Of a stretch of DNA of 51,819 bases, positions 26,198 to 40,370 are shown in pieces (the first letter of the stretch is position 1; every line of letters starts with the position of its first letter). The stretch is from Chloroflexota bacterium (GTDB taxonomy: Bacteria > Chloroflexota > Limnocylindria > Limnocylindrales > CSP1-4). Both the position numbers and the translations under genes were made by a program. The stretch spans positions 17,555 to 69,373 of the forward strand of contig PLZO01000121.1 in the NCBI GenBank assembly GCA_003152165.1, read 5' to 3'. The notes under the pieces were generated by a model. That model ran no database searches. It was given only the letters and a program-made list of their open reading frames with translations, and was not told where the DNA came from.

Positions 26198-26865
26198 CTG
26201 TTGCTTCTGCTCCTCCGGTCCCCCTCCTCCCTGACGGGACCGGGCTCCTCCTCCCACGAGACTCCGATCGCAGGGTCGGGGTCTCGCTCGTTCTGGGACA
26301 GATCACGCCGCTCATCTATGTCGACCAGGGTCAAGGCGCCCGGGTCCTCGCCCTGCCAGTCGGCGCGGGCCAGCGCCACCGCTTCCAGCCTGGCCAGGAG
26401 TGCCCGGAGACGCCGCTCACCCACGGCCAACAGCTCGTCTGCAGCGACCAGTGCAGTCGCCCGGTCCAGCGTGCAGGGCAGCGGCCGGCTGACTCCGGCA
26501 GCATCCGCCAGCACTGCCGGAGCTCGATCCACGAGCAGACGGAGAACGCCCGGTACGAGCCAGGGCATGTCGCCGCCGACCACCAGCACAACCGAGCCTC
26601 GAGCTGCCCCGAGACCCGTTCTGAGGCCCACGAGCGGACCGCCGAAGCGCTCCGGGTCGGTCACGAAACGAACCGGCCGACCGAACGGCCCAAGCTCCGG
26701 CCGCGCCCGATCAGGGGCGATGACGACCACGATCTCGTCGACGATGCCGGTCAGCGCCCGCAGCGCATGCCCCAGGAGCGGAACCCCGTCGATCGGCGCG
26801 GCCAGCTTGTCACTGCCGAATCGGCGCGAGGCCCCGCCGGCGAGCACCACGCCCGACACGATCAC
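26191..26865 (-). CDS. mobA: MobA-like molybdenum cofactor guanylyltransferase
   Basis: 224 aa nucleotidyltransferase that would add GMP to molybdopterin, making the guanine dinucleotide form used by formate dehydrogenase. Seen: N-terminal 'VVLAGGASRRFGSDKLA' (LAGGxSxRxGxDK) and the metal-binding 'VVVGGDMPWLVP' near 95. The C-terminal ~25 residues are charged and probably unstructured. GTG 26865 overlaps the selB stop (GTGA), so it is the last gene of the selC-selA-selB-mobA unit, a placement that fits supplying a Mo/W selenoenzyme. A different NTP-transferase specificity (e.g. MocA) is possible. Confidence 0.83.
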   Translation of the reverse strand: MIVSGVVLAGGASRRFGSDKLAAPIDGVPLLGHALRALTGIVDEIVVVIAPDRARPELGPFGRPVRFVTDPERFGGPLVGLRTGLGAARGSVVLVVGGDMPWLVPGVLRLLVDRAPAVLADAAGVSRPLPCTLDRATALVAADELLAVGERRLRALLARLEAVALARADWQGEDPGALTLVDIDERRDLSQNERDPDPAIGVSWEEEPGPVREEGDRRSRSNRA

Positions 26866-28859
26866 GAGACCGTTCGCCCTGGTGCGCCGCCGATCCCCGC
26901 GCCCAGCCCGGCCGCCAGCCCAGCTCGCGGCCCTGGGACGTGACCAGCGGGCGTGCGCCGGAGGATCCCCCGGCGGTCCAGGTCCTCGAGGATTGCCAGC
27001 ACGTACTTTCGGCTCGTCCCCGTGGCGTCCCGGTAGGCGGCAGGTGTCAATGCACCCGCCGTAGCCATCAGCACGGCCTTCCGGGCTAGCTCGAGGTACA
27101 GCGGTCCGGCGTACGCCAGGTCATCGTCGAGGCGGACGATCCGGCCGGCCGATTCGAGGGCGCGCAGGCCCTCTGGCGGGCAACTGCTCGCCCGAACCGC
27201 AACCGCCAGGGCCGGTGGTGTGGCCGTCGCCAGGGCCCGCTCGAGCCGGTCCATCGCGGCGGTGACGGCCGGCGGCAGGTCCAGCGCATGGCCCGGTTCG
27301 TGCAGCTGATCGCCATCCCGCGCCATGCGGCCGGCGGCCACGAGGTTGGTCAGCAACGCGTCGACGATGACGCCGGCGTCGTGCTGATCGACCGTAGCGG
27401 CCCGTCGGAGCGAGCGCCCGAGGGTCGTCCCCAACTCCGCCCGGGAGATCCCCGGCGCGAGCGGAGCCACCCGGGCACGACTGGCCAGTGCATCGAGTGC
27501 CTCCGTCTCGAGCGCCCTGGCGATCGCCAGCACGACGAGCCGGCCCGCCAGCCGAACGGCTCCAAGGGCTCGGTCGTCGAGGTCGTCCGCGGGCAGTCGG
27601 CCGGGATCGATTACCCCGTGCAGGCCGACCAGGGCGCGCGATCGTTCGGTGCTGCTGGTCGAGGCCAGGCTGGCCAGGCGATCCGAATCGGCCCGGCGGC
27701 GGCCCGGGCCGATCGGCGGGTTGGGATCGAGCACCGAGCCGCCGATCGCCCTGCCGCCGGGTGCGCTCCGGCGCAGTACGAAATGGTCGCCGGTCGCCAC
27801 TGCCACCGGCCGAGGCAAGCGGAGCCGGGCAACAACACGGCCATCGGGAAGCAGCACAAGATCCATCCGCCCGCGGCCGAGACTCGCCTGCACCTGCTCG
27901 GTTCCAAGGTGCAGCCGGAACAAGGCGCCAGGCGCGACCGGCCAGAACCGGGCACCGGAGCGGTCGCGACCGGCGGGCCCGCCGGTCCCGGAATCGGCGC
28001 GCTCGAATCCGCGTGGCGGCCGCAACACGGCGAGGATCGCCGCGCTCGCCAGGACCCGTGGATCGGTGGTCAGGACTGCGCCCCGAGGGAGGTCGCCGGC
28101 ATCCATGCCGGCCAGGTTGAGCGCGACTCGCCCACCTCCCTCGACCGCCTCCACCGTCCCACCGTGGACCTGCAGCTCGCGGGCCCGGACGACCCGTCCG
28201 CCGGGAACGAGCCGCAGCAGGGCACCGCGCTCGAGGCGGCCGCCCTGGAGGGAGCCGGTGGCCACCGTCCCGCGGCCCTTGATCACGAAGGTGCGGTCGA
28301 TCGCGAGCCGGACCGGTTCGCCGGCCGCGGCCGGTGGCGAGTGCTGCAGGACCCGGTCGCGCAGCCGCAGGAGCTCGGTCGACAGCTCGGCCAGGCCGCT
28401 GCCGGCGACCGAGGAGACAGGCACGATTGGCGATCCCTGAAGCGTGGTGCCGACCAGCAGCGCCCGGATGAGCTCGGTCGCCTCGCCGACTCGGATCGGA
28501 TCCACGCTGTCGATCTTGGTCAGTGCGACGATCCCATCCTGGATCAGCAGCCCATTGAGCAGTTCGAGATGTTCGATCGTCTGCGCCCGGGGCCCATCAT
28601 CAGCCGCCACCACGAGCATCGCCGCCTGGATCTCGCCGGCCCCCACCAGCATGTTGCCGACGAGCCGGTTGTGGCCAGGCACGTCCACGAAATCGAGCTG
28701 GCTGCCGTCCGGCAGACGGAGGTGGGCATAGCCGACATCGATCGTCATCCCCCGCCGGCGCTCCTCGGGCAGCCGATCCGCGTCGATCCCGGTGAGGGCC
28801 AGCAGGAGGGCAGTCTTGCCATGGTCGATGTGACCGGCGGTCCCGACGACGACGGTCAT
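26862..28859 (-). CDS. selB: Selenocysteine-specific translation elongation factor SelB
   Basis: 665 aa GTPase delivering Sec-tRNA to UGA codons next to a bSECIS hairpin. Seen: G1 'GTAGHIDHGKTALL' (residues 6-19), 'RRRGMTIDVGYA' (G2), G3 'DFVDVPGHNRLVGNML' with Asn in place of the usual Glu after DVPGH, and G4 'ALTKIDSVD'. The C-terminal winged-helix array (about 400-665) binds the SECIS RNA and ends with 'GTSRKYVLAILEDLDRRGILRR'. ATG 28859 removes 13 unlikely residues of the track ORF. Starts 16 nt after the selA stop. Confidence 0.96.
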   Translation of the reverse strand: MTVVVGTAGHIDHGKTALLLALTGIDADRLPEERRRGMTIDVGYAHLRLPDGSQLDFVDVPGHNRLVGNMLVGAGEIQAAMLVVAADDGPRAQTIEHLELLNGLLIQDGIVALTKIDSVDPIRVGEATELIRALLVGTTLQGSPIVPVSSVAGSGLAELSTELLRLRDRVLQHSPPAAAGEPVRLAIDRTFVIKGRGTVATGSLQGGRLERGALLRLVPGGRVVRARELQVHGGTVEAVEGGGRVALNLAGMDAGDLPRGAVLTTDPRVLASAAILAVLRPPRGFERADSGTGGPAGRDRSGARFWPVAPGALFRLHLGTEQVQASLGRGRMDLVLLPDGRVVARLRLPRPVAVATGDHFVLRRSAPGGRAIGGSVLDPNPPIGPGRRRADSDRLASLASTSSTERSRALVGLHGVIDPGRLPADDLDDRALGAVRLAGRLVVLAIARALETEALDALASRARVAPLAPGISRAELGTTLGRSLRRAATVDQHDAGVIVDALLTNLVAAGRMARDGDQLHEPGHALDLPPAVTAAMDRLERALATATPPALAVAVRASSCPPEGLRALESAGRIVRLDDDLAYAGPLYLELARKAVLMATAGALTPAAYRDATGTSRKYVLAILEDLDRRGILRRTPAGHVPGPRAGLAAGLGAGIGGAPGRTVS

Positions 28860-28875
28860 CGCCGGGGCGGTCCGA

Positions 28876-30258
28876 TCACGGCTCGACCAGGCGGGCAATC
28901 GCGCGGCCGATCAGATGGTCCGCGGTGGGCTCCACCGTCCGCAGGTCGAGGACGACGGCCGCGTCGGCGATCCGGGCGACGATGCAGGGGTCAGCCCGAC
29001 GGAGATCGGCGAGCAGGCGGCTGGCCGATCCGGCCCGGATCACCAGGCCGAACGAGGCCAGGGTCTCGCCGGGCAGTGAGCCCCCGCCGATTGTCGCCTC
29101 CATCGCTTCCGCGCTGACCGTGTCTCGGTGCCGCGTCGGCAGGCCGTCCCGGATGGCCTCGGCCCTGGCCCTGAGGGTGGCGACCCCGGCCGCGATCATG
29201 CGCCAGACGGGGACGTCGATCTGGGCCAGGCCGGCCCGATACAGGCCGAGGGTCGCGCCGAGAGCGGCCAGGGTCGCCTTGTCCGGCCTGGTGGCCCGGG
29301 CCAATGGGTCGCGCCGAAGCCGGGCAACGAGGTCGGCCCGACCCACGATCAGCCCGGCCTGCGGGCCGCCTAGAAGCTTGTCGCCGCTGAACGTCACGAG
29401 ATCGGCGCCGGCAGCCAGGCGCTCCATCGGCATCGGTTCGTGAGCGAGGCCGTACTGCTCGGTGGCTAGGAGGGCGCCGCTGCCGAGGTCGTCGACGAGG
29501 ATCGCGCCGTGGCGGTGGGCAAGCGCGGCGACCGCCTTTGGATCGGGCGCCTCGGTGAAGCCGGCGATGACGAAGTTCGACGGATGGACGCGCAGGACGA
29601 CCCGGGCGCGGCCATCGGCCAGCGCCGCTTCGAAATCATCGACCCGGGTCCGGTTCGTGGTGCCGACTTCCACCAGGCGCGCGCCGCTGCGCCGGATGAT
29701 CTCCGGGATCCGCACGCCGCCACCGATCTCGACGAGCTCGCCGCGCGAGACGGCCACCCCACCGCCGCGCCCGGCGAGGCCCACCGCCAGAACCAGCGCC
29801 GCGGCATTGTTGTTCGCGACAAGGGCATCCTGGGCGCCGGTCAGGGCGATGAGATGCGCCTCCGCGGCGCGGAAGCGAGCACCTCGCCGGCCGGAACCCC
29901 GGTCGAGCTCGAGCAGGGTGTAGCCCGCCACCGCCGCCCCGGCCGCCTCGATCGCCGCCGCCGGCCAGACTGCCCGGCCCAGGTTGGTGTGGAGGATCAC
30001 GCCGGTCGCATTGATCACCCGAACGAGGCCCGAGCCGAGCGGATCGGCCAGACGCTCGAGCCTCGCGACCAGATCGTCGGCGAGGGCGGGCAGGTCCCGC
30101 CACGCGCCCCCGCCGGCAATCCGGCCACGTTCGGCGTCGACCAGCTCGTGGGCGGCTGCCAGCAGGGCGTGATGGTCCCGCTCGCCGGCCAGCCGCGGCC
30201 GAACCGCGCTGAGCAGCCGCTCAACCCCGGGCGGGCGAGGCGCCTCGGAACCCGGCAT
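28876..30258 (-). CDS. selA: L-seryl-tRNA(Sec) selenium transferase
   Basis: PLP enzyme converting Ser-tRNA(Sec) to Sec-tRNA(Sec) with selenophosphate. 460 aa, the usual length. Seen: 'RVINATGVILHTNLGRA' near 80, 'NNNAAALVLAV', 'VDDLGSGAL', and the PLP lysine in 'TFSGDKLLGGPQAG' near 292. ATG 30258 is preceded by GGGAGGTCCGA, a strong ribosome-binding site. It starts 24 nt after the 3' end of tRNA-Sec, so tRNA and mRNA probably share a transcript. Confidence 0.97.
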   Translation of the reverse strand: MPGSEAPRPPGVERLLSAVRPRLAGERDHHALLAAAHELVDAERGRIAGGGAWRDLPALADDLVARLERLADPLGSGLVRVINATGVILHTNLGRAVWPAAAIEAAGAAVAGYTLLELDRGSGRRGARFRAAEAHLIALTGAQDALVANNNAAALVLAVGLAGRGGGVAVSRGELVEIGGGVRIPEIIRRSGARLVEVGTTNRTRVDDFEAALADGRARVVLRVHPSNFVIAGFTEAPDPKAVAALAHRHGAILVDDLGSGALLATEQYGLAHEPMPMERLAAGADLVTFSGDKLLGGPQAGLIVGRADLVARLRRDPLARATRPDKATLAALGATLGLYRAGLAQIDVPVWRMIAAGVATLRARAEAIRDGLPTRHRDTVSAEAMEATIGGGSLPGETLASFGLVIRAGSASRLLADLRRADPCIVARIADAAVVLDLRTVEPTADHLIGRAIARLVEP

Positions 30259-30282
30259 TCGGACCTCCCTGTCGAGAACCGT

Positions 30283-30379
30283 TGGCGGGAGCGCATGGGA
30301 GTCGAACCCACCGCGCCACGCGGAGCGTGGCGCCACCGGTTTTGAAGACCGGGGAACCCACCGGGACCCCTCCGCCCCC
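30283..30379 (-). tRNA. selC: tRNA-Sec (anticodon UCA)
   Basis: 97 nt. Read on the minus strand: acceptor 5' strand GGGGGCGG, D-arm GGGTCCCGGTGGGTTCC, anticodon arm CCGGT-CTTCAAA-ACCGG with anticodon TCA, a very strong 9-bp variable arm GCGCCACGC-TCC-GCGTGGCGC, T-arm GTGGG-TTCGACT-CCCAT, acceptor 3' strand GCGCTCCC, discriminator G and encoded CCA. The long extra arm, UCA anticodon and 8+5 helix plan identify tRNA-Sec. The eighth acceptor pair appears as G-G and pair four as G-U. A TATGCT box at 30392-30397 is a suitable promoter. Directly upstream of selA. Confidence 0.95.
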
Positions 30380-30391
30380 AGATCGATCCAG

Positions 30392-30397
30392 AGCATA
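30392..30397 (-). promoter_or_regulatory. -10 box (TATGCT) of the selC-selA-selB-mobA unit
   Basis: TATGCT on the minus strand 12 nt before the first base of tRNA-Sec, leaving about 5 nt of 5' leader to trim. A GC palindrome sits just upstream. Confidence 0.45.
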
Positions 30398-30398
30398 G

Positions 30399-30412
30399 GG
30401 CCGGCGCCGGCC
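30399..30412. terminator. 14-bp GC palindrome downstream of the hydrolase gene
   Basis: GGCCGGCGCCGGCC is a perfect palindrome 31 nt beyond the stop of the minus-strand hydrolase and directly upstream of the selC -10 box. It could act as a transcript end for the hydrolase or as an operator for selC; no U-tract. Confidence 0.25.
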
Positions 30413-30442
30413 ATGAGCACCGGCCCCCGCCCGCGCGGAGGC

Positions 30443-31321
30443 TCAGGCTGGCTTGGCGAGGGCCTCGACTTCGGTGAACCAGTCCCGGGCGAGCTGGCTG
30501 AAGTCGTCAGGCCGCTCGAGCGAAGGCAGGTGGGCCACGTCGGGCCAGCGCACCAGGGTGGCGCCGGGGATCTCCTCGGCCAGGCGCGCAGCCGTGCGGC
30601 CCACCGCGGCCACGTCGAGGTCGCCGACGAGGATCCGGGTTGGAACGGCAATGTCGTCCGCCCGGGACCCAACGGCAGGCTTCAGCCCGCGATCGTCGAG
30701 ATCCTCCGCGTTCCAGCCGTCGATGTTTTCGAAAGCCTTCATCTGCATCTGGCCGACGAACGCGCGAATCGCCGGGGCAACCCGGTCCGAAGGCTGACCG
30801 GGGCCGTCCACCCAGGTCTCCAGGTTGGCCTCGACGGCTCCCTCGAGGTCCTCCTCGGCGAGCGCCACCTCCTCAGCCTCCCAGAACGCCTCGATGTCGG
30901 CAGTGACCTCCGTCCGAAGCGAGCCGCTCGGTGCAACGAGCAGCAACGATTCGACCAGCTCAGGCCGAGCCAGGGCGACCTCGGCAACCACGCCGGCACC
31001 CATCGACACGCCGACGACGTGGGCCCGTTCAATCGCGAGCTCGTCGAGCAGGGCTGCGACCTCGAGGTGGTGCGCGAACGGAGCGGCCGTCTTCCGATCC
31101 GAAGCGCCAAAGCCGCGCAGGTCCAGGCGCACGACGCGACGATCGGCAGCCAACGCGATCATCTGCGGATCCCACATCCGGCGATCGCAGATCCCCGCAT
31201 GGACCAGGACCACCGGCCGACCGGGTGCCGCGGCCTCGGCCAGGGCCGAGGGATCGGCAGAGTCCGACGGCAGCAGGTCGTCGTAGGCGAGGCCCGTCTT
31301 GGCGCGCAGGTCGGTCGGCAT
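30443..31321 (-). CDS. Alpha/beta hydrolase
   Basis: 292 aa. Seen: oxyanion 'VVLVHAGICDRRMWD', nucleophile elbow 'VVGVSMGAGVV' (Ser near 114), acid in 'ILVGDLDV' and the His in 'WPDVAHLPSLERP'. Similar in plan to haloperoxidase/3-oxoadipate enol-lactonase-like esterases. Start ATG has TAGACT 6 nt upstream. Its start codon is 36 bp from that of divergent selD; no functional link to selenium metabolism is evident. Confidence 0.87.
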   Translation of the reverse strand: MPTDLRAKTGLAYDDLLPSDSADPSALAEAAAPGRPVVLVHAGICDRRMWDPQMIALAADRRVVRLDLRGFGASDRKTAAPFAHHLEVAALLDELAIERAHVVGVSMGAGVVAEVALARPELVESLLLVAPSGSLRTEVTADIEAFWEAEEVALAEEDLEGAVEANLETWVDGPGQPSDRVAPAIRAFVGQMQMKAFENIDGWNAEDLDDRGLKPAVGSRADDIAVPTRILVGDLDVAAVGRTAARLAEEIPGATLVRWPDVAHLPSLERPDDFSQLARDWFTEVEALAKPA

Positions 31322-31327
31322 GCGGGC

Positions 31328-31333
31328 AGTCTA
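31328..31333 (-). promoter_or_regulatory. -10 box (TAGACT) of the alpha/beta hydrolase gene, leaderless type
   Basis: TAGACT on the minus strand, 6 nt before ATG 31321 and 12 bp from the divergent selD -10 box. Confidence 0.5.
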
Positions 31334-31345
31334 CCGGGGGCCCCG

Positions 31346-31351
31346 TATGAT
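31346..31351 (+). promoter_or_regulatory. -10 box (TATGAT) of selD, leaderless type
   Basis: TATGAT followed by 6 nt and ATG 31358; the best match to the bacterial -10 consensus among the leaderless starts here. Confidence 0.55.
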
Positions 31352-31357
31352 CGGCGA

Positions 31358-32428
31358 ATGAACCTGCCCTTCGTCGAGGCTCCGTCCCTGACCTCGCTAA
31401 CCAGCTCGGGCGGCTGTGCCGCCAAGCTCGGCGCGGACATCCTGGCCCAGACTCTCGCCCAGCTCGGCGCCGAGGACGTGCCGCCCGAGCTGATCGCTGG
31501 CCTGAATCCGCCCGACGACGCGGCGGTCTATGTGGTCGCGCCCGGGCTGGCCATCATCGGTACGCTCGACTTCTTCCCGCCCCTCGTGGACGACCCTTGG
31601 ACCTTCGGCGAGATCGCCGCGGCGAACGCCCTGTCCGACGTCTTCGCCATGGGCGGCCGCGTCCTGTTCGCCCTGTCAATCGCCGCCTTCCCCGAGGAGC
31701 TGCCGCAACAGACGATGACCGCGATCCTGGCCGGGGCCAGGGCCAAGGTCCGCGAGGCGGGTGGGACGCTCGCCGGCGGCCACACGATCCGCGATGCTGA
31801 GCCGAAGTACGGTCTGGCCGTCATTGGAGTCGCCCATCCGGACGAGCTCCTGCGCAAGGGTGGTGCGGGGCCGGATGACGTCCTCGTCCTGACCAGAGCG
31901 CTGGGCACAGGCCTCCTCGTCGCGGGCCGCCGCCAGGGCCACCCGGCGGCAAGCGCTGCGGCCTTCGATGCAGCCGTCGACGGGATGCGCAGCCTGAACC
32001 GAGCTGCGGCCGAGGTCCTCGTCGCCAACCGGGTCAAGGCCGCGACCGACGTCACCGGCTTCGGGCTGCTCGGCCACGGACTGGAGATGGCTCGCGGGTC
32101 GGGGACCCGGTTCATCTTCGAGGCGTCCGCCCTGCCGGCCCTGGACGGCGCCCTGGACCTGGCCAGGGCCGGAATCGAGACTGGCGGCGCAGGCCACAAC
32201 CGCCGGTTCGTTGCCCGCTCGTTCGGGCTCGACCCGGCCACGGCAGCCGAGCTGGTCACCCTGGCCCACGATCCGCAAACCTCGGGCGGCCTGCTTGCGG
32301 CGATCGAACCGGCGAAGCTGGCTGGCGTGGAGGAAGCGCTGGCTGCAGCGGGCGTCTCGAGCTGGCGGGTCGGCCGGGTCGAGGCCGTTCCCGACGGCGA
32401 GTCGCCGGGTGTTGTGCTGGACTGCTAG
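31358..32428 (+). CDS. selD: Selenide, water dikinase (selenophosphate synthetase)
   Basis: Makes selenophosphate from selenide and ATP, the selenium donor for SelA. 356 aa. Seen: the catalytic loop 'LTSSGGCAAKLGAD' with Cys20 and Lys23 (this SelD uses Cys, not Sec), 'NPPDDAAVY', 'ANALSDVFAMGGRVLFAL' and 'ATDVTGFGLLGHGLEMA'. ATG 31358 with a TATGAT box 6 nt upstream; the longer track ORF from 30413 is antisense to the hydrolase. Directly precedes the selenoprotein formate dehydrogenase, 69 nt away. Confidence 0.97.
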   Translation: MNLPFVEAPSLTSLTSSGGCAAKLGADILAQTLAQLGAEDVPPELIAGLNPPDDAAVYVVAPGLAIIGTLDFFPPLVDDPWTFGEIAAANALSDVFAMGGRVLFALSIAAFPEELPQQTMTAILAGARAKVREAGGTLAGGHTIRDAEPKYGLAVIGVAHPDELLRKGGAGPDDVLVLTRALGTGLLVAGRRQGHPAASAAAFDAAVDGMRSLNRAAAEVLVANRVKAATDVTGFGLLGHGLEMARGSGTRFIFEASALPALDGALDLARAGIETGGAGHNRRFVARSFGLDPATAAELVTLAHDPQTSGGLLAAIEPAKLAGVEEALAAAGVSSWRVGRVEAVPDGESPGVVLDC

Positions 32429-32444: not shown

Positions 32445-32497
32445 CGATCCCACGCTCCAGGTCGACATCGATCGGCTCCCAGCCAGGAGGTTCCACC

Positions 32498-34423
32498 GTG
32501 GCCAGGCCCTATACCCGACTGATGACCCCGCTCGTGCGCGACGGCGACAAGCAGGCTGGCGCACCGTTCCGGCCGGCCACGTGGGACGAGGCGCTGGAAC
32601 GGACCGTCGACGGCTTCCGCCGGGTGGGTGCAGCCCATGGCCCGAGCACCTTCGGAACCTTCAGCTGCTCCAAGGCGACGAACGAGCTCAACTACGCCGC
32701 CCAGAAGTTCAGCCGGACGATCCTGGGCAGCAACAACATCGATAGCTGCAACAGAACGTGACACGCCCCTAGCGTCGCCGGTCTGGCGACCGTCTTCGGT
32801 GCCGGTGGCGGCACAAGTTCATATCGTGAGATCGAAGACACGGATTTCTTGATCCTGTGGGGCTCGAATGCCCGCGAGACCCACCCGATCTTCTTCCACC
32901 ACCTGCTCAAGGGCGTGAACAAGGGCGCCAGGCTGTACACGGTCGACCCGCGCCGGACAAGCTCTGCGGAGTGGTCCGACGGGTGGTTGGGTCTCGACGT
33001 TGGCTCGGACATTGCGCTGGCCAACGCGATCGGTCGAGAGATTCTGGCCGCCGGGCTCGAGAACAGGGAGTTCATCGCCCGGGCAACCAGCGGCATCGAG
33101 GAGTACCGGGCCAAGGTCGAGTCGTACACCCTCGAGTACGCCGAGCGCGAGACGGGCGTGCCGGCCGCGATGATCCGCGAGCTGGCCCACGCATTCGCCA
33201 GCGCGCCGCGGGCGATGATCTGCTGGACCCTCGGCATCACCGAGCACCACAACGGCGTCGACAACGTCCTCGCCCTGATCTCACTGGTCCTGCTCACAGG
33301 ACACGTCGGCCGCTATGGCAGCGGGGTTAACCCCCTGCGCGGCCAGAACAACGTCCAGGGCGGCGGTGACATGGGCGCATTACCGGATCGGCTGCCGGGC
33401 TTCCAGCATGTCGAGAACGACGAGCTTCGGGCAAAGTTCGACCAACTCTGGGGCGTGACTGTGCCACCCAAGCGCGGCTGGCACCTGTCCGGGATGTTCG
33501 ACGCCATGGAGCGCGGCGACCTGTGCGCGGTTTATGTGATCGGCGAGAACCCGGTCCAGTCCGAGGCCGACCAGGCCAAGGCGATCCATCTCCTGTCGAA
33601 CCTCGAATTCCTGGTGGTCCAGGACATCTTCCTGACGAAGACCGCCCAGCTGGCCGATGTCGTCCTGCCCGCCTCGGCCGCCTGGGCCGAGACCGAGGGC
33701 ACCGTCACGAACTCGGAGCGCCGCGTCCAGCGGGTCAGGCGGGCGCTCGCCCCACCCGGCCTGGCCCGCGACGACCTTGAGATCGTGGTCGACTTGGCCC
33801 AGCGGATGGGCGGCAACTGGCCGGCGACCACCCCCGAGGCAATCTGGGACGAGCTCCGGATGCTGTCCCCCGTTCACGCCGGTATGAGCTACAAGCGGCT
33901 CGAGGAGCTCGGCGGACTGCAATGGCCGTGCTACGACGAGAACCACCCGGGTGAGCTGTTCCTCCATTCCCGCCTCTGGGAGGACCCGGTCCCGGGCAAT
34001 CGGGCGCCGTTCATCCCGGTCGATCACGACCCGCCGGTCGATCGGCTGGATGCCGATTTCCCAATCCGGCTGACGACCGGGCGGCGGCTGGACTCGTACA
34101 ACACCGGCGTCCAGAGCGCCGGCTACCGGTCACCGCTACGACGGGGCGAGTCGCTCGACATCTCGCCCGAGGACCTGGCTCGCTACGGCCTGGCCGATGG
34201 CGAGCTCGTCCGCGTCGTCTCGCGGCGCGGCCAGATCTCGGTCGCCGTCCGGGTCGATCCGTCCCTCCGTCCAGGCCTGACGTTCATGACGTTGCATTTC
34301 CAGGACGATGTCGCGGTCAACCTCCTCACCATCGACGCAACCGACCCGAAGTCCGGCACGGCCGAATTCAAGGCGACAGCGATCCGAATCGAGAAGCTCA
34401 AGGCCGCCGTTCGCGTTCCCTAG
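32498..34423 (+). CDS. fdhF: Formate dehydrogenase catalytic subunit, selenocysteine-containing (UGA = Sec88), lacking its N-terminal Fe-S region
   Basis: Mo/W-bis-MGD enzyme oxidising formate or reducing CO2. One 641-residue frame from GTG 32498 to TAG 34423 with an internal TGA at 32759-32761 decoded as Sec; the ORF track splits it in two. Around it, 'NNIDSCNRT-U-HAPSVAGL' aligns with the FdhF active site (Sec-His), and a bSECIS-like hairpin follows. Further family motifs: 'GSGVNPLRGQNNVQGG', 'ENPVQSEADQ', 'LTTGRRLDSYNTG'. AGGAGG lies 7 nt before the start. The usual N-terminal Fe4S4 domain and preceding ferredoxin domains are missing: the protein begins exactly where 'KGRFGF' would end. 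They are encoded by 36421-37428. Confidence 0.95.
32759..32790 (+). promoter_or_regulatory. Selenocysteine UGA with bSECIS-like hairpin
   Basis: In-frame TGA at 32759-32761 followed after 12 nt by a perfect 6-bp stem GTCGCC (32774-32779) / GGCGAC (32785-32790) closing the loop GGTCT. Loop and distance resemble the E. coli fdhF SECIS, whose apical loop also contains AGGUCUG. Would be bound by the C-terminal domain of the SelB encoded in this window. Confidence 0.85.
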
Positions 34424-34497
34424 CGGCTGAGCGGGCGCGAGCAGCGGGCCGACACGGGCGGTCGGGCACGCCGGCGCTCGGCTTGAGCGGGGCTCGC

Positions 34498-34503
34498 TAA
34501 ACT
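34498..34503 (+). promoter_or_regulatory. Possible internal -10 box (TAAACT) before nuoEF
   Basis: TAAACT, then GGCGGAG, then ATG 34511. The spacer also resembles a ribosome-binding site, so this may be an internal leaderless promoter or simply a translation signal. Confidence 0.3.
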
Positions 34504-34510
34504 GGCGGAG

Positions 34511-36424
34511 ATGGACATCCATGTCATTGCGCCTCTGGCCAGTCCCGCCGAGCGAGCCGCGGTTGACGCACTGCTTGGTCCGCCCAGCTCGGGCTGGGCC
34601 GGCGGGTCGAGGGACTCGGCCAACGACGGCCACGTCGCGCGCGGCGGCCATGCGGCTCGGGCCGAGCGCGACCTCCTCCTGCCGGCCCTCCACGCAGTCC
34701 AGGATCGGATTGGATGGATCAGCCAGCCAGCGCTGGCCTACATCTGCCGCCGCCTGACGGTCCCGCCGGCCGAGGCCTACGGCGTGGCGACGTTCTACGG
34801 GCTGCTCGCCACGCGCGAGCGGGCGCCGATCGTTGCCCATGTGTGCGACGACATCGCCTGCCGGCTGGTCGGAGCCGAGGAGGTCTGCTCCGACCTCGCC
34901 AGAACCCACGGGCCGGCCGGCCAACCGAGCGCGGACGGCCAGACGACCTGGCTGCGGAGCCCCTGCCTGGGCCTGTGCGAGCGGGCACCGGCGGCCCTGT
35001 TCACCGTAGCCGGCGATGCTCCCGAGCAGATCGGCGAAGCCCCGATCGACGCCGTCGGCGTGATCGCCAGGCTGGCCAGCGCGGCCGCCGGACGGCCGAT
35101 CGCGATCGACGGAGCGAGCTTGTCGGCAGAGGAACGCCTGGCCGACGCCCGCATCTCGGTGCCCCAGGCCGGCGACGATGGCCTGCAGCTCCTGGCTCGA
35201 GTCGGCCGGGTCGATCCGGGCTCGCTCGAGGCGTATCGCTCAGCCGGCGGCTATGCGGCCCTTAACCGGGCGATCGAGCTGGGTCCGGAGGCGGTGATCG
35301 CCGAGGTGACCGCTTCGAAGCTGCTGGGCCGGGGCGGTGCCGCCTTCCCGACCGGGCGGAAATGGGCCGGAGTCCGGGCCGCACAGGGATCCCCGAAGTA
35401 CGTCGTCTGCAACGCCGACGAGTCCGAACCGGGCACGTTCAAGGACCGCGCCCTGCTCGAGCACGATCCGTTCGTGCTGATCGAAGCGATGACGATTGAG
35501 GCGTTCGCCACCGGCGCCAGCCGGGGCTTCCTCTACCTGCGCGGCGAATACCCTTTGGCGGCCAGCCGGCTGCGCAACGCGATCGCCCTGGCCAGCGCTG
35601 CCGGCCTGCTTGGCTCGGATATCCTGGGGTCGGGTTTCGCCTTTGAAATCGAGCTCCGGATTGGTGCTGGAGCCTACATCTGCGGCGAGGAGACGGCTCT
35701 CTTCAACTCGATCGAGGGCAAGCGCGGCGAGCCGCGCAACAAGCCGCCATTCCCGGTCGAGGTCGGACTGTTCGGCAAGCCGACGGCGGTCAACAACGTC
35801 GAGACGCTGGCCAACGTTCCGCTGATCCTGCGCGAGGGCGGCGCGGCGTTTGCCACGATCGGGACCGAGGGATCCGCGGGACCCAAGCTCTTCTGCGTCT
35901 CCGGCCATGTTCGCCGGCCGGGAATCTACGAGGTCCCGTTCGGAACCACGCTCCGGGCACTGCTCGAGCTGGCCGGCGGCGTTCCAGCCCCGATCGGCGT
36001 GACGGCCGATGACACCATCCGGACGATCCTGCTGGGCGGCGCCGCCGGCGTGTTCGTGGGACCCGAGGTGCTCGATACGCCGCTTACGTTCGAGGCAACG
36101 AGGGCCATTGGGGCAACGCTCGGTTCGGGCGTCGTGATGGTCTTCGATCGGACCGCCGACCTGGTTGGCACGCTCCGCCGCATCGCCGCCTTCTTCCGCG
36201 ACGAATCATGCGGCCAGTGCGTACCCTGCCGGGTCGGCACCGTGCGCCAGGAGGAGCTCCTCGCCCGGCTCGCCGCAGACCGGCCGCACGGCTCCCGGGC
36301 CGACGAGCTGCGCCTCCTTGGACAGATCGGCCAGGCAATGCGCGACGCGTCGATCTGCGGGCTCGGCCAGACAGCTTCATCGGCCATCGAAAGCGCCGTC
36401 CGCGCGGGTATCGTTCCGGCATGA
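34511..36424 (+). CDS. Formate dehydrogenase NAD-binding subunit, NuoE-NuoF fusion
   Basis: 637 aa. N-terminal thioredoxin-like [2Fe-2S] domain (NuoE type): 'AYGVATFYG' then cysteines in 'CDDIACRLVG' and 'SPCLGLCERAPA' near 114-165. From about 230 a NuoF domain: FMN/NAD-binding 'GRGGAAFPTGRKW' (about 273), 'NADESEPGTFKDR', 'GAGAYICGEETAL', and the [4Fe-4S] ligands 'ESCGQCVPCRVGT' (about 565) plus a last Cys in 'ICGLGQTA'. This is the diaphorase unit of NAD-dependent formate dehydrogenases (FdsB/G combined). 87 nt after the catalytic gene; its stop overlaps the next ATG (ATGA). Confidence 0.94.
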   Translation: MDIHVIAPLASPAERAAVDALLGPPSSGWAGGSRDSANDGHVARGGHAARAERDLLLPALHAVQDRIGWISQPALAYICRRLTVPPAEAYGVATFYGLLATRERAPIVAHVCDDIACRLVGAEEVCSDLARTHGPAGQPSADGQTTWLRSPCLGLCERAPAALFTVAGDAPEQIGEAPIDAVGVIARLASAAAGRPIAIDGASLSAEERLADARISVPQAGDDGLQLLARVGRVDPGSLEAYRSAGGYAALNRAIELGPEAVIAEVTASKLLGRGGAAFPTGRKWAGVRAAQGSPKYVVCNADESEPGTFKDRALLEHDPFVLIEAMTIEAFATGASRGFLYLRGEYPLAASRLRNAIALASAAGLLGSDILGSGFAFEIELRIGAGAYICGEETALFNSIEGKRGEPRNKPPFPVEVGLFGKPTAVNNVETLANVPLILREGGAAFATIGTEGSAGPKLFCVSGHVRRPGIYEVPFGTTLRALLELAGGVPAPIGVTADDTIRTILLGGAAGVFVGPEVLDTPLTFEATRAIGATLGSGVVMVFDRTADLVGTLRRIAAFFRDESCGQCVPCRVGTVRQEELLARLAADRPHGSRADELRLLGQIGQAMRDASICGLGQTASSAIESAVRAGIVPA

Positions 36425-37428
36425 GCAGCGTGCCGCCGATCCAGTTCTACCCGCCGGCACGGTCGAGCCAGCCGCCAATGCCGCCGGAGGCAGCGCGGGT
36501 CGTCCAGGTCGAGCTGACGATCGACGGCCGAACCGTGAGCGTGCCTGCCGGATCAACGATCCTCGACGCCTGCCGCGCCGAAGGGGTCGACACACCCACC
36601 CTGTGCTATCTCGAAAACCTCACCCCGATCAACGCCTGCCGGGTGTGCGTCGTCGAGGTTGCCGGCTCGCGGGTGCTTGCTCCCGCCTGCTCGCGCAAGG
36701 TGGAGCCGGGGATGGCCGTCCAGACGGACACCGAACGGGTCCGGCTGTCACGCAAGGTCGTGCTCGAGTTGCTCGGCTCGTCGGTTGACCTCTCGACGGC
36801 GCCCCAGGCGCCCGCCTACTTCGCCCGCTATGGCGCCGATCCCGAACGGTTCGGAGCCGCCGCTCAGCCAGCCGCAGCAAACGAGCGCGACGGGCTCGAG
36901 GCGGGCCACCATCACGCCGCCGACGGCCAGCCAAGCGCGGCCACGGTGGGCCAGCCCGTGAAGATCGATAACGAGCTGTACGTCCGCGACTACTCGAAAT
37001 GCATCCTCTGCTACAAGTGCGTCGAGGCCTGCGGGGTCGATGCCCAGAACACCTTCGCAATCGCGGTTGCCGGACGCGGCTTTGATGCCCGGATCTCGAC
37101 CGAGTGGAACGTGGGCCTGCCCGATTCGGCTTGTGTCTACTGCGGCAACTGCATCGGCGTGTGCCCGACCGGTGCCCTGATGTTCCGCTCGGAGTACGAG
37201 ATGCGCGAGGCCGGCACGTGGGACGAGGCCGCCCAGACCAGCACCGACACGATCTGCCCGTACTGTGGCGTTGGCTGCACGCTCAGCCTGCTCGTCCAGG
37301 ACAACGAGATCGTCAAGGTGACCTCGCCGCTGGATTCGTCCGTGACCGAAGGCCACCTGTGCGTCAAAGGCCGCTTCGGATTTTCGTTCGTCCAGCAGCG
37401 CGAGCCCGGCGCGGCCCCGACGACGTGA
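36421..37428 (+). CDS. Formate dehydrogenase iron-sulfur subunit carrying the detached N-terminal region of FdhA
   Basis: 335 aa. N-terminal plant-type [2Fe-2S] domain with C62-x10-C73-x2-C76-x13-C90; a His/Ala-rich spacer (about 120-180) where the His-Cys cluster of NuoG/FdhA would sit but its ligands are not visible; a bacterial ferredoxin pair C194/197/200/204 and C238/241/244/248; then the molybdopterin-oxidoreductase Fe4S4 motif C279-x2-C282-x3-C286-x27-C314 with 'LCVKGRFGF' (K316 is the conserved electron-relay lysine). It ends 15 residues after that motif, exactly where the catalytic gene at 32498 begins its homology. Together the two equal one full-length FDH alpha chain. ATG overlaps the nuoEF stop. 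Confidence 0.93.
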   Translation: MSSVPPIQFYPPARSSQPPMPPEAARVVQVELTIDGRTVSVPAGSTILDACRAEGVDTPTLCYLENLTPINACRVCVVEVAGSRVLAPACSRKVEPGMAVQTDTERVRLSRKVVLELLGSSVDLSTAPQAPAYFARYGADPERFGAAAQPAAANERDGLEAGHHHAADGQPSAATVGQPVKIDNELYVRDYSKCILCYKCVEACGVDAQNTFAIAVAGRGFDARISTEWNVGLPDSACVYCGNCIGVCPTGALMFRSEYEMREAGTWDEAAQTSTDTICPYCGVGCTLSLLVQDNEIVKVTSPLDSSVTEGHLCVKGRFGFSFVQQREPGAAPTT

Positions 37429-37458: not shown

Positions 37459-38289
37459 TCAGAGATTAATACGGGCTCGACCGGCGTAGATGTTGAAGCC
37501 GTCGCCACGCAGGAAGCCGACGAGGGTCTGACCGAATCGTTGAGCGGCCTCGACCGCCAGGTCGGACGGGGCCGAGACAGCGCACACGATCGGGATTCCG
37601 GCGACGGCGGCCTTCTGGACGATCTCGAGGCTGACCCGACCACTGACCATCAGGATCCGCTCGTTCAGGGGCGCCAGGCCGGCCAGGACGGCCCAACCCA
37701 CGAGCTTGTCGAGGGCGTTGTGGCGGCCTACGTCCTCGCGCAGGACAAGCAGGCCGCCGGCGGGGTCGAACAGGCCGGCCGCATGGAGCCCGCCGGTTCG
37801 CTCGAACACGGCCTGGCCTTCACGCAAGCGAGCAGGCAGGGCCAGGATCACATTACGGCTCACCACGGGACCGGCCGGGATCGGGTCGCACCGGACGGCG
37901 ACCTCGTCGAGGGAGGCTTTGCCGCAGATGCCGCAGCTGGCTGTGGCCACGAAGTGGCGCTCGGGGACGGTCGAGGCGTCGAACGGGCGATGGAGCCGGA
38001 CGATCACGGTGTCGTCCGGTTGGGAGAGGGTGGCTGGATCGCCGAATTCGATCTTCGCGACATCGCCATCGCGGATCAGGCCTTCGGTTCTGAGGAATCC
38101 CACGGCTAGCTCGGCCTCCGAGCCGGGCGTGCGCATCGTGATGGCGACCGCAACTGGGTCCTGGCCAGGCCCCCCAACACGGATCTCCATCGGCTCCTCG
38201 CCCACGAGCGTGTCGTCGCGCTCCTCGATGGTATCGCCGCGAACGGCCAGGATCCTGGCGCGGGAGACGTGGCGGGTGGGATGGGTCAC
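37459..38289 (-). CDS. fdhD: Formate dehydrogenase accessory sulfurtransferase FdhD
   Basis: Transfers sulfur to the molybdenum cofactor before insertion into formate dehydrogenase. 276 aa. Seen: the catalytic 'TASCGICGKASLDE' (CxxC loop) near residues 117-130 and 'LREDVGRHNALDKLVG' and 'VSGRVSLEIVQKAA' of the family. Start GTG 38289 has TAGACT 6 nt upstream. Convergent with the FDH operon (31 nt between stops). Confidence 0.95.
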   Translation of the reverse strand: MTHPTRHVSRARILAVRGDTIEERDDTLVGEEPMEIRVGGPGQDPVAVAITMRTPGSEAELAVGFLRTEGLIRDGDVAKIEFGDPATLSQPDDTVIVRLHRPFDASTVPERHFVATASCGICGKASLDEVAVRCDPIPAGPVVSRNVILALPARLREGQAVFERTGGLHAAGLFDPAGGLLVLREDVGRHNALDKLVGWAVLAGLAPLNERILMVSGRVSLEIVQKAAVAGIPIVCAVSAPSDLAVEAAQRFGQTLVGFLRGDGFNIYAGRARINL

Positions 38290-39142: not shown

Positions 39143-40261
39143 TCAGGCCCGGGCGCGACTCCGGTCGGGATCGTAGAGCGCCGCGTGATGGACCGTACCG
39201 GTCGCGCTGGTTCCGTCGACGGTCGTGACGACGACGCCTGTCCCGTCGGCGATCGAGGGTTCGAGGTAACCCAGGGCCAGTGTCCGACCCAGGGTGTAAC
39301 CAATGTCGGCCGAGGTGATCTTGCCCACGGATCGACCATCGAACGTCACCGGATCGCCCAGCTTGGGCAGGAACCCGATGCCGTCGAAGGCGATCCCGAC
39401 GAGCACCCGGTTGACGCCGGCGTCGCGCTGCCGCTGGAGCGCGTCGCGGCCGACGAAGTCGCCCTTGTCGAGGTGGACGGTCCACCCAACGCCTGCTTCG
39501 TAGGGGCTCGTCGTCTCGTCGAGATCGAGGCCATAGAGCGGGTACTTCTTCTCGATCCGCACGCTCCGAAGGGCACCCAGCCCGGCCGGCTTCAGCTCGT
39601 ACGGTTCGCCTGCGTCCAGGATCGCCGTCCACATGTGATCGGCGTAGTCGCGCGGGTAGAACAGCTCGTAGCCAAGCTCGCCCGAATAGCCCGTCCGTGA
39701 CAGGACGACCGGCACTTCGGCGAGGATCCCCTGGCGGAAGTGGTAATAGGGCAGTGCCGCGGTCGACAGATCGAGGCTGGTCAAGCCGGCCAGGATCGTC
39801 CGGCTGTGGGGACCCTGGATCGAGAGGTAGGCCGTGCCCGAAACGCAGTTTGTGATGTAGGCCAGGCGGCCGCGGGACTGCTCGGTCAGGTGGGCGACCA
39901 CGCGGTCGACCCGTGATGGCGTGGGGCACAGCCAGTAATGCTCGGCCGAGAACCGGAAGACGGTCAGGTCGTCGATCATCCCACCGGCCTCGTTCGGCAC
40001 GGAGCTGTACAGGACACCGCCATCGGTGAGGCGCCGGACATCGTTGACGAGGACCGAGTTGAGGAACGCCTCGGCTTCACGACCCTTCACGTCGACGGCG
40101 CCCTGGTAGTAGACGTCGTACATCCCGGCGGCCGTCCGCGTCGCCACGTGCTCGGCCTGGACGGAGCTGAATCGGAATGCCGCGTCGAACCCGATCCGGT
40201 CGACGATCTCCGCACCGAGCGCCACGAACTGGTGGTAGTACGGCGAGTGTCGGCGAGCCAT
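39143..40261 (-). CDS. GcvT-family aminomethyltransferase-like protein, stand-alone
   Basis: 372 aa folate-binding GcvT-fold protein. Seen: 'TAAGMYDVYYQGAVDVKGREAEAFLN', 'VPNEAGGMIDDLTVFR' with the catalytic-type Asp, 'YLSIQGPHSR', 'RTGYSGELGYELF' and 'SPYEAGVGWTVHLDKGDFVGRDAL'. ATG 40261 has GGAGG 6 nt upstream and drops 20 residues from the track ORF. No gcvH or gcvP is present, so it need not be a glycine cleavage T-protein; a methyltransferase or demethylase moving C1 units to tetrahydrofolate is an alternative that would fit next to formate metabolism. Confidence 0.85.
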   Translation of the reverse strand: MARRHSPYYHQFVALGAEIVDRIGFDAAFRFSSVQAEHVATRTAAGMYDVYYQGAVDVKGREAEAFLNSVLVNDVRRLTDGGVLYSSVPNEAGGMIDDLTVFRFSAEHYWLCPTPSRVDRVVAHLTEQSRGRLAYITNCVSGTAYLSIQGPHSRTILAGLTSLDLSTAALPYYHFRQGILAEVPVVLSRTGYSGELGYELFYPRDYADHMWTAILDAGEPYELKPAGLGALRSVRIEKKYPLYGLDLDETTSPYEAGVGWTVHLDKGDFVGRDALQRQRDAGVNRVLVGIAFDGIGFLPKLGDPVTFDGRSVGKITSADIGYTLGRTLALGYLEPSIADGTGVVVTTVDGTSATGTVHHAALYDPDRSRARA

Positions 40262-40370
40262 CGGAAGCCTCCTGCTGGTCGGCGGCGCGTGCTCGTCAGG
40301 CGAGCGGTCTCCGGTCAGCATGGCCGTTGGAGCGGCCAGCTGCTGGCTCAGTCCCGCGCCTGGGAACGAG

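Follow-up and report, generated by a model that had tools for sequence, protein, structure and literature searches.

A predicted selenocysteine-containing formate dehydrogenase whose FdhA chain is divided between its Fe4S4 and molybdenum-binding domains

The window analysed here, a stretch of 51,819 nucleotides from a soil-type Chloroflexota bacterium whose draft genome is in 177 contigs, carries an apparent formate dehydrogenase (FDH) operon that raises a simple question: where is the Fe4S4 domain of a catalytic gene that begins without any N-terminal Fe-S ligand? The original prediction placed it at the end of the gene two positions downstream, beyond a NuoE-NuoF fusion. The features concerned, hereafter the Mo, NuoEF and FeS genes, are as follows.

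32485..32490, + strand: Shine-Dalgarno-like AGGAGG of the Mo gene, perfect, 7 nt before the GTG, by direct sequence reading
32498..34423, + strand: Mo/Sec catalytic subunit, 641 aa with TGA as Sec (predicted); PF00384 and PF01568 only
34511..36424, + strand: NuoE-NuoF fusion, predicted FMN/NAD(H)-binding diaphorase subunit; PF01257, PF01512, PF10531, PF10589
36421..37428, + strand: FeS subunit, 335 aa; PF13510, Fer4 and PF04879, for 2Fe-2S, 2x[4Fe-4S] and a C-terminal Fe4S4 domain
37240..37395, + strand: molybdopterin-oxidoreductase Fe4S4 domain in the FeS gene; PF04879 at residues 274-325, E 3.5e-18

This arrangement withstood inspection at each point. The Mo gene starts at GTG 32498 and has a single in-frame TGA (codon 88); upstream, its frame is shut by the selD stop TAG at 32426-32428, no cysteine occurs among the 23 residues preceding the GTG, and a Pfam search found no PF04879, leaving an FdhA without the N-terminal Fe4S4 domain. 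The FeS gene begins at ATG 36421 in a 4-nt overlap with the NuoEF stop, and its product ends directly beyond CVKGRFG; counted from that ATG, the Fe4S4 residues are C279, C282, C286, C314 and K316, with both positions and residues as originally given. Pfam domains likewise confirm that the middle gene is a NuoE-NuoF fusion, supplying the diaphorase with FMN and 4Fe-4S domains that characterizes NAD-linked FDHs of the FdsABG/FDH1 type. The beta subunit of Methylorubrum extorquens FDH1 is a fused NuoE-NuoF as well.

The division of FdhA is seamless. Against the 672 positions of TIGR01591, the FeS gene covers 1-52 and the Mo gene 52-672, so that the model divides at position 52 without loss or repetition, and the Mo protein scores 646 bits, just under the cut-off of 666, because positions 1-51 sit on the other gene. 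Rhodobacter capsulatus FdsA, a single chain, is partitioned in the same way: the FeS protein aligns to residues 21-306 and the Mo protein to 307-931. Both comparisons put the break between the Fe4S4 and Mo-binding domains, where the original prediction had it. Of the features of a cytoplasmic FdhA-type Mo/W-bisPGD FDH, the Mo gene has the Molybdopterin and Molydop_binding domains with the Sec/Cys-His pair (U88-H89, the Mo ligand position followed by His, invariant in our set A2 as C88-H89), whereas the N-terminal Fe4S4 domain expected on the same chain sits on the FeS gene. The AF2 model of the Mo subunit (pLDDT 83.6) superposes on E. coli FdhF with a TM of 0.90. The single-chain AF2 model of the FeS subunit has a mean pLDDT of 61.8 and is poor in the ferredoxin and Fe4S4 parts; it therefore speaks neither for nor against docking, and little weight can be given to its best structure matches, which include 6TG9 and HydA-type chains.

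A gene that merely looks split could be an assembly error, a frameshift or a decayed FdhA, and both the draft state of the genome and the fact that most relatives are metagenome bins make this worth considering. When GTDB genomes were scanned with the FeS protein, 525 relatives were returned and the best 80 retained; from these and from genome regions added later, we counted 80 loci in which both genes are visible. Every one of the 80 is split, with Mo before NuoEF before FeS, so that the predicted permutation relative to FdhA is conserved family-wide and the proposed survey of other genomes found the same split throughout the family. These loci come from nine named phyla (Acidobacteriota, Chloroflexota, Planctomycetota, Actinomycetota, Vulcanimicrobiota, Rokuibacteriota, Pseudomonadota, Myxococcota and Eiseniibacteriota) and include the isolate Trebonia kvetii (L100). 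In none of them did a search upstream of the Mo gene find CxxCxxxC. The same break, order and frames in independent loci, together with the strong Shine-Dalgarno sequence before the Mo start, the overlap before the FeS start and the invariant ligands, argue against an artefact; recurrence across loci refutes it, and we give it next to no probability. A second FdhA, named in the original prediction as one of the observations that would refute it, was not found at E <= 1e-3 in the host's own genome, which is 92% complete.

Two further checks gave negative results. Long open frames in nine high-identity members (G429, G443, G474, G509, G612, G1032, G1034, G562 and G459) had suggested re-fusion but proved to be chance frames, and all nine members are split. 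Between Mo and NuoEF in Chloroflexota, a search for a conserved gene met inserts that are unrelated to one another, among them VapBC-like, DUF262-like and SRPBCC-like ORFs as judged by eye.

Exact complementarity of the two halves would also be expected if they were rejoined after translation by protein trans-splicing, as halves of a split intein, since they would then add up to an ordinary FdhA. However, the FeS frame in split loci ends only 8-31 aa (median 13) past CxKGR, with tails that vary, and only a few residues precede the Mo start. This length leaves no room for intein halves, and for that reason the possibility is excluded for practical purposes.

The catalytic residue itself depends on the recoding of a stop codon, and the window supplies the elements for it.

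26862..28898, - strand: selB; TIGR00475
28876..30231, - strand: selA, homologous part of the ORF; TIGR00474
30287..30379, - strand: tRNA-Sec; RF01852, 69.9 bits, and ARAGORN
31358..32428, + strand: selD, selenide water dikinase, start approximate; TIGR00476
32759..32761, + strand: UGA predicted to be read as Sec, codon 88, Mo ligand; TGA conserved in 94 loci, Cys in 2
32774..32790, + strand: predicted bSECIS hairpin GUCGCC-GGUCU-GGCGAC; loop 18 nt after the UGA

The hairpin has the spacing and loop of the E. coli fdhF SECIS. It was not found by an Rfam search, and folding from the single sequence gave a z of -0.19; across the 94 TGA loci, the full 6-bp stem is present in 92, against 0.5% of codon positions by chance, and the loop is GGUCU in 89 and GGGCU in 5. 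An in-frame UGA, a SECIS and the Sec machinery, which together mark a bacterial selenoprotein, are all present and indicate that the UGA of the Mo gene is read as Sec. The machinery, adjacent to the operon, forms a complete cluster at 26862-32428, in which selB-selA-tRNASec on one side and selD on the other enclose an alpha/beta hydrolase gene (30443-31321, - strand). Two actinomycete split members (L130 and L144), one of them in a 9.5-Mb contig, have Cys in place of Sec.

What, then, would the separated domain do? In R. capsulatus FDH, the direct wire runs A1-A2-A3-A5-B6-FMN, with clusters A4 and G7 off the path (PMC7171172). The ligand sets for A1, A2, A3 and A5, as in NAD-linked FDHs, are all present in the FeS subunit, and K316 is the lysine between A1 and the pterin; neither K316 nor any of the 16 Fe-S cysteines varies among 54 split and 24 fused proteins. 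The His/Cys3 motif of cluster A4 is absent from the FeS protein of the window and from its fused sisters L105 and L106. Our preferred reading is that the operon encodes a three-subunit, Sec-containing, NAD-linked FDH that arose by one fission of FdhA and permutation of the operon, and that the FeS subunit delivers the Mo-proximal cluster in trans. We put the probability of this reading at 0.86. The seamless domain boundary, the invariance of the cysteines and of the lysine, and the fact that the two genes are kept together strongly imply delivery in trans.

We infer the docking in trans, the order of the clusters, the direction of transfer and NAD+ as the partner. In this scheme, the Mo/W-Sec centre of the Mo subunit would oxidise formate. 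Cluster A1, in the Fe4S4 domain of the FeS protein, would receive the electrons with K316 as relay; from A1 they would move to two further [4Fe-4S] clusters and the [2Fe-2S] cluster of the same protein, and from there through the NuoF [4Fe-4S] cluster to FMN and NAD+. The cut would turn the contact between cluster and pterin into a real subunit interface. One maturation gene lies beside the operon.

37459..38289, - strand: fdhD, predicted sulfurtransferase for FDH bis-MGD, convergent; PF02634, NF001943 above cut-off

Conceivably, bis-MGD could be inserted into the Mo-Sec subunit via FdhD first, with the FeS-NuoEF module docking afterwards; this module might also be swapped or held back, oxygen being one condition under which that could happen. 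We regard this as an unlikely extension; if true, the enzyme would be the first of the bis-MGD type whose proximal cluster can detach.

An alternative is that the Fe4S4 cluster of the FeS subunit is a vestige and that the Mo subunit acts by itself or uses a different partner, ferredoxin for instance. DMSO-reductase-type Mo domains do function without a cluster. Cluster N7 of complex I, moreover, is such a remnant (PMC7171172). A vestige fits poorly with the retention of all four cysteines and K316 in 54 divergent split proteins, and we saw no FeS gene without the Fe4S4 domain. The genes also stay together: of ten further genomes in which no Mo gene was seen beside FeS, nine contain one, and four genomes retain both on one contig, 7.6-12.5 kb apart. 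We therefore judge a vestige improbable and favour a working cluster supplied in trans.

The relatives suggest how the division arose. In the next group, whose FeS half is at most 48% identical, FdhA is fused in every locus examined; where NuoE/F adjoins the fused gene, it almost always precedes it (L139 is the exception), and some fused sisters have no NuoEF nearby. One fused Sec FdhA has a partial second NuoF ahead of it (L117:4273-5199), perhaps a relic of tandem duplication. When the Mo and FeS halves are each given a tree of their own, the split form is a single clade in both, with support of 100/100. The FeS-half tree joins this clade at 100/98 to fused Chloroflexota FdhA (L105/106/108/109/116), and in the Mo-half tree its nearest fused group is not resolved. 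In L121, the deepest member of the split clade, NuoE and NuoF are still separate and lie, in that order, between Mo and FeS.

These trees also bear on a two-source origin, in which a HoxU/HydA-type FeS protein gained an Fe4S4 domain and joined a Mo protein that had lost its own, without any fission of FdhA. Such an origin would suit the HydA and HoxU hits among the best for the FeS model, the best Mo matches to FdhF and HDCR and not to FdsA, and the separate HoxU-like protein that Halarchaeum pairs with FdhF. However, it is the entire FeS half, Fe4S4 domain included, that is sister to the FeS half of the fused FdhA, and the A4 motif is missing alike from both; a two-source origin accordingly appears to us very doubtful. 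The data fit a single fission and circular permutation of NuoEF-FdhA with later spread between phyla. An ancestral FdhA chain would have been cut once, exactly where the Fe4S4 domain meets the bis-MGD domains, and a circular permutation would have turned the operon NuoEF-[FeS.Mo] into Mo-NuoEF-FeS; the route that we infer is tandem duplication followed by complementary loss. The trees further indicate that the operon has been transferred between phyla, since both place Chloroflexota L028, L042 and L122 inside Acidobacteriota.

Among characterized enzymes, FdsABG of R. capsulatus (PDB 6TG9/6TGA) shares the domains and the A1-A2-A3-A5-B6-FMN wire (PMC7171172), but its FdsA is one chain after FdsG-FdsB and it has Cys, an A4 cluster and FdsD, whereas the enzyme described here would have two chains, a permuted order, Sec and no A4. 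Methylorubrum extorquens FDH1 (PDB 7E5Z, 7VW6, 8J83) is NAD-linked, as predicted here, and matches both halves, but its alpha chain is intact (989-995 aa in PDB). In both sequence and structure, the Mo subunit is matched best by E. coli FdhF, HDCR FdhF and methanogen FdhA (PDB 1AA6, 7QV7, 7BKB), which differ in carrying Fe4S4 in the catalytic chain, the Mo match beginning at about residue 60, and in having other redox partners. Haloarchaeal FDH (Halarchaeum, L149:2745-5950) and the HylCBA-FdhA type likewise encode a HoxU-like FeS protein separately, but there the Fe4S4 domain stays on the Mo chain (FdhF in L149) and the break point lies elsewhere (PMC5736913). Formylmethanofuran dehydrogenase FwdB/FwdD is a bis-MGD enzyme with a split chain (PMC7171172), but its split takes off the C-terminal dinucleotide-binding domain and not the Fe4S4 domain. 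A Lost City Chloroflexi bin with fdhA beside nuoG, hoxF and hoxE may or may not be a further case (PMC7117926).

In all bis-MGD formate dehydrogenases that we compared, the Fe4S4 domain lies within the catalytic chain. We know of no bis-MGD enzyme with the proximal Fe4S4 domain as a separate protein, and a literature search of open-licence papers returned no earlier description of an Fe4S4/Mo split, in line with the original suggestion of an undescribed architecture. The split enzyme is a widespread new variant within NAD-linked FDH, classed as a variant because it is still an NAD-linked FDH. Every member examined, from at least nine phyla, shows that the Fe4S4 domain can be a separate protein, which offers a natural system for loading, mutating or exchanging the proximal cluster with the Mo subunit untouched. 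Annotators should be aware that the genes are easily called NuoG-like and truncated selenoprotein.

Close FeS homologues, counted at an identity of at least about 55% and by identity only (architecture was read in the 80 loci), occur in about 97 of 1,179 sampled genomes from five phyla: Chloroflexota (31/251), Acidobacteriota (9/149), Actinomycetota (33/297), Planctomycetota (9/196) and the phylum of G298 (15/286), which is probably Myxococcota because L088 belongs to the same phylum. Since members come mostly from soil and groundwater metagenomes, formate oxidation in these habitats may commonly proceed through the split enzyme. Two neighbouring genes deserve mention: in one locus (L124:9699-10751, G008), NuoEF and FeS are separated by a second, distant NuoF-like gene, and in the window a GcvT-like (folate-binding aminomethyltransferase-like) ORF, identified by eye, lies near the FDH operon at 39143-40321 on the - strand.
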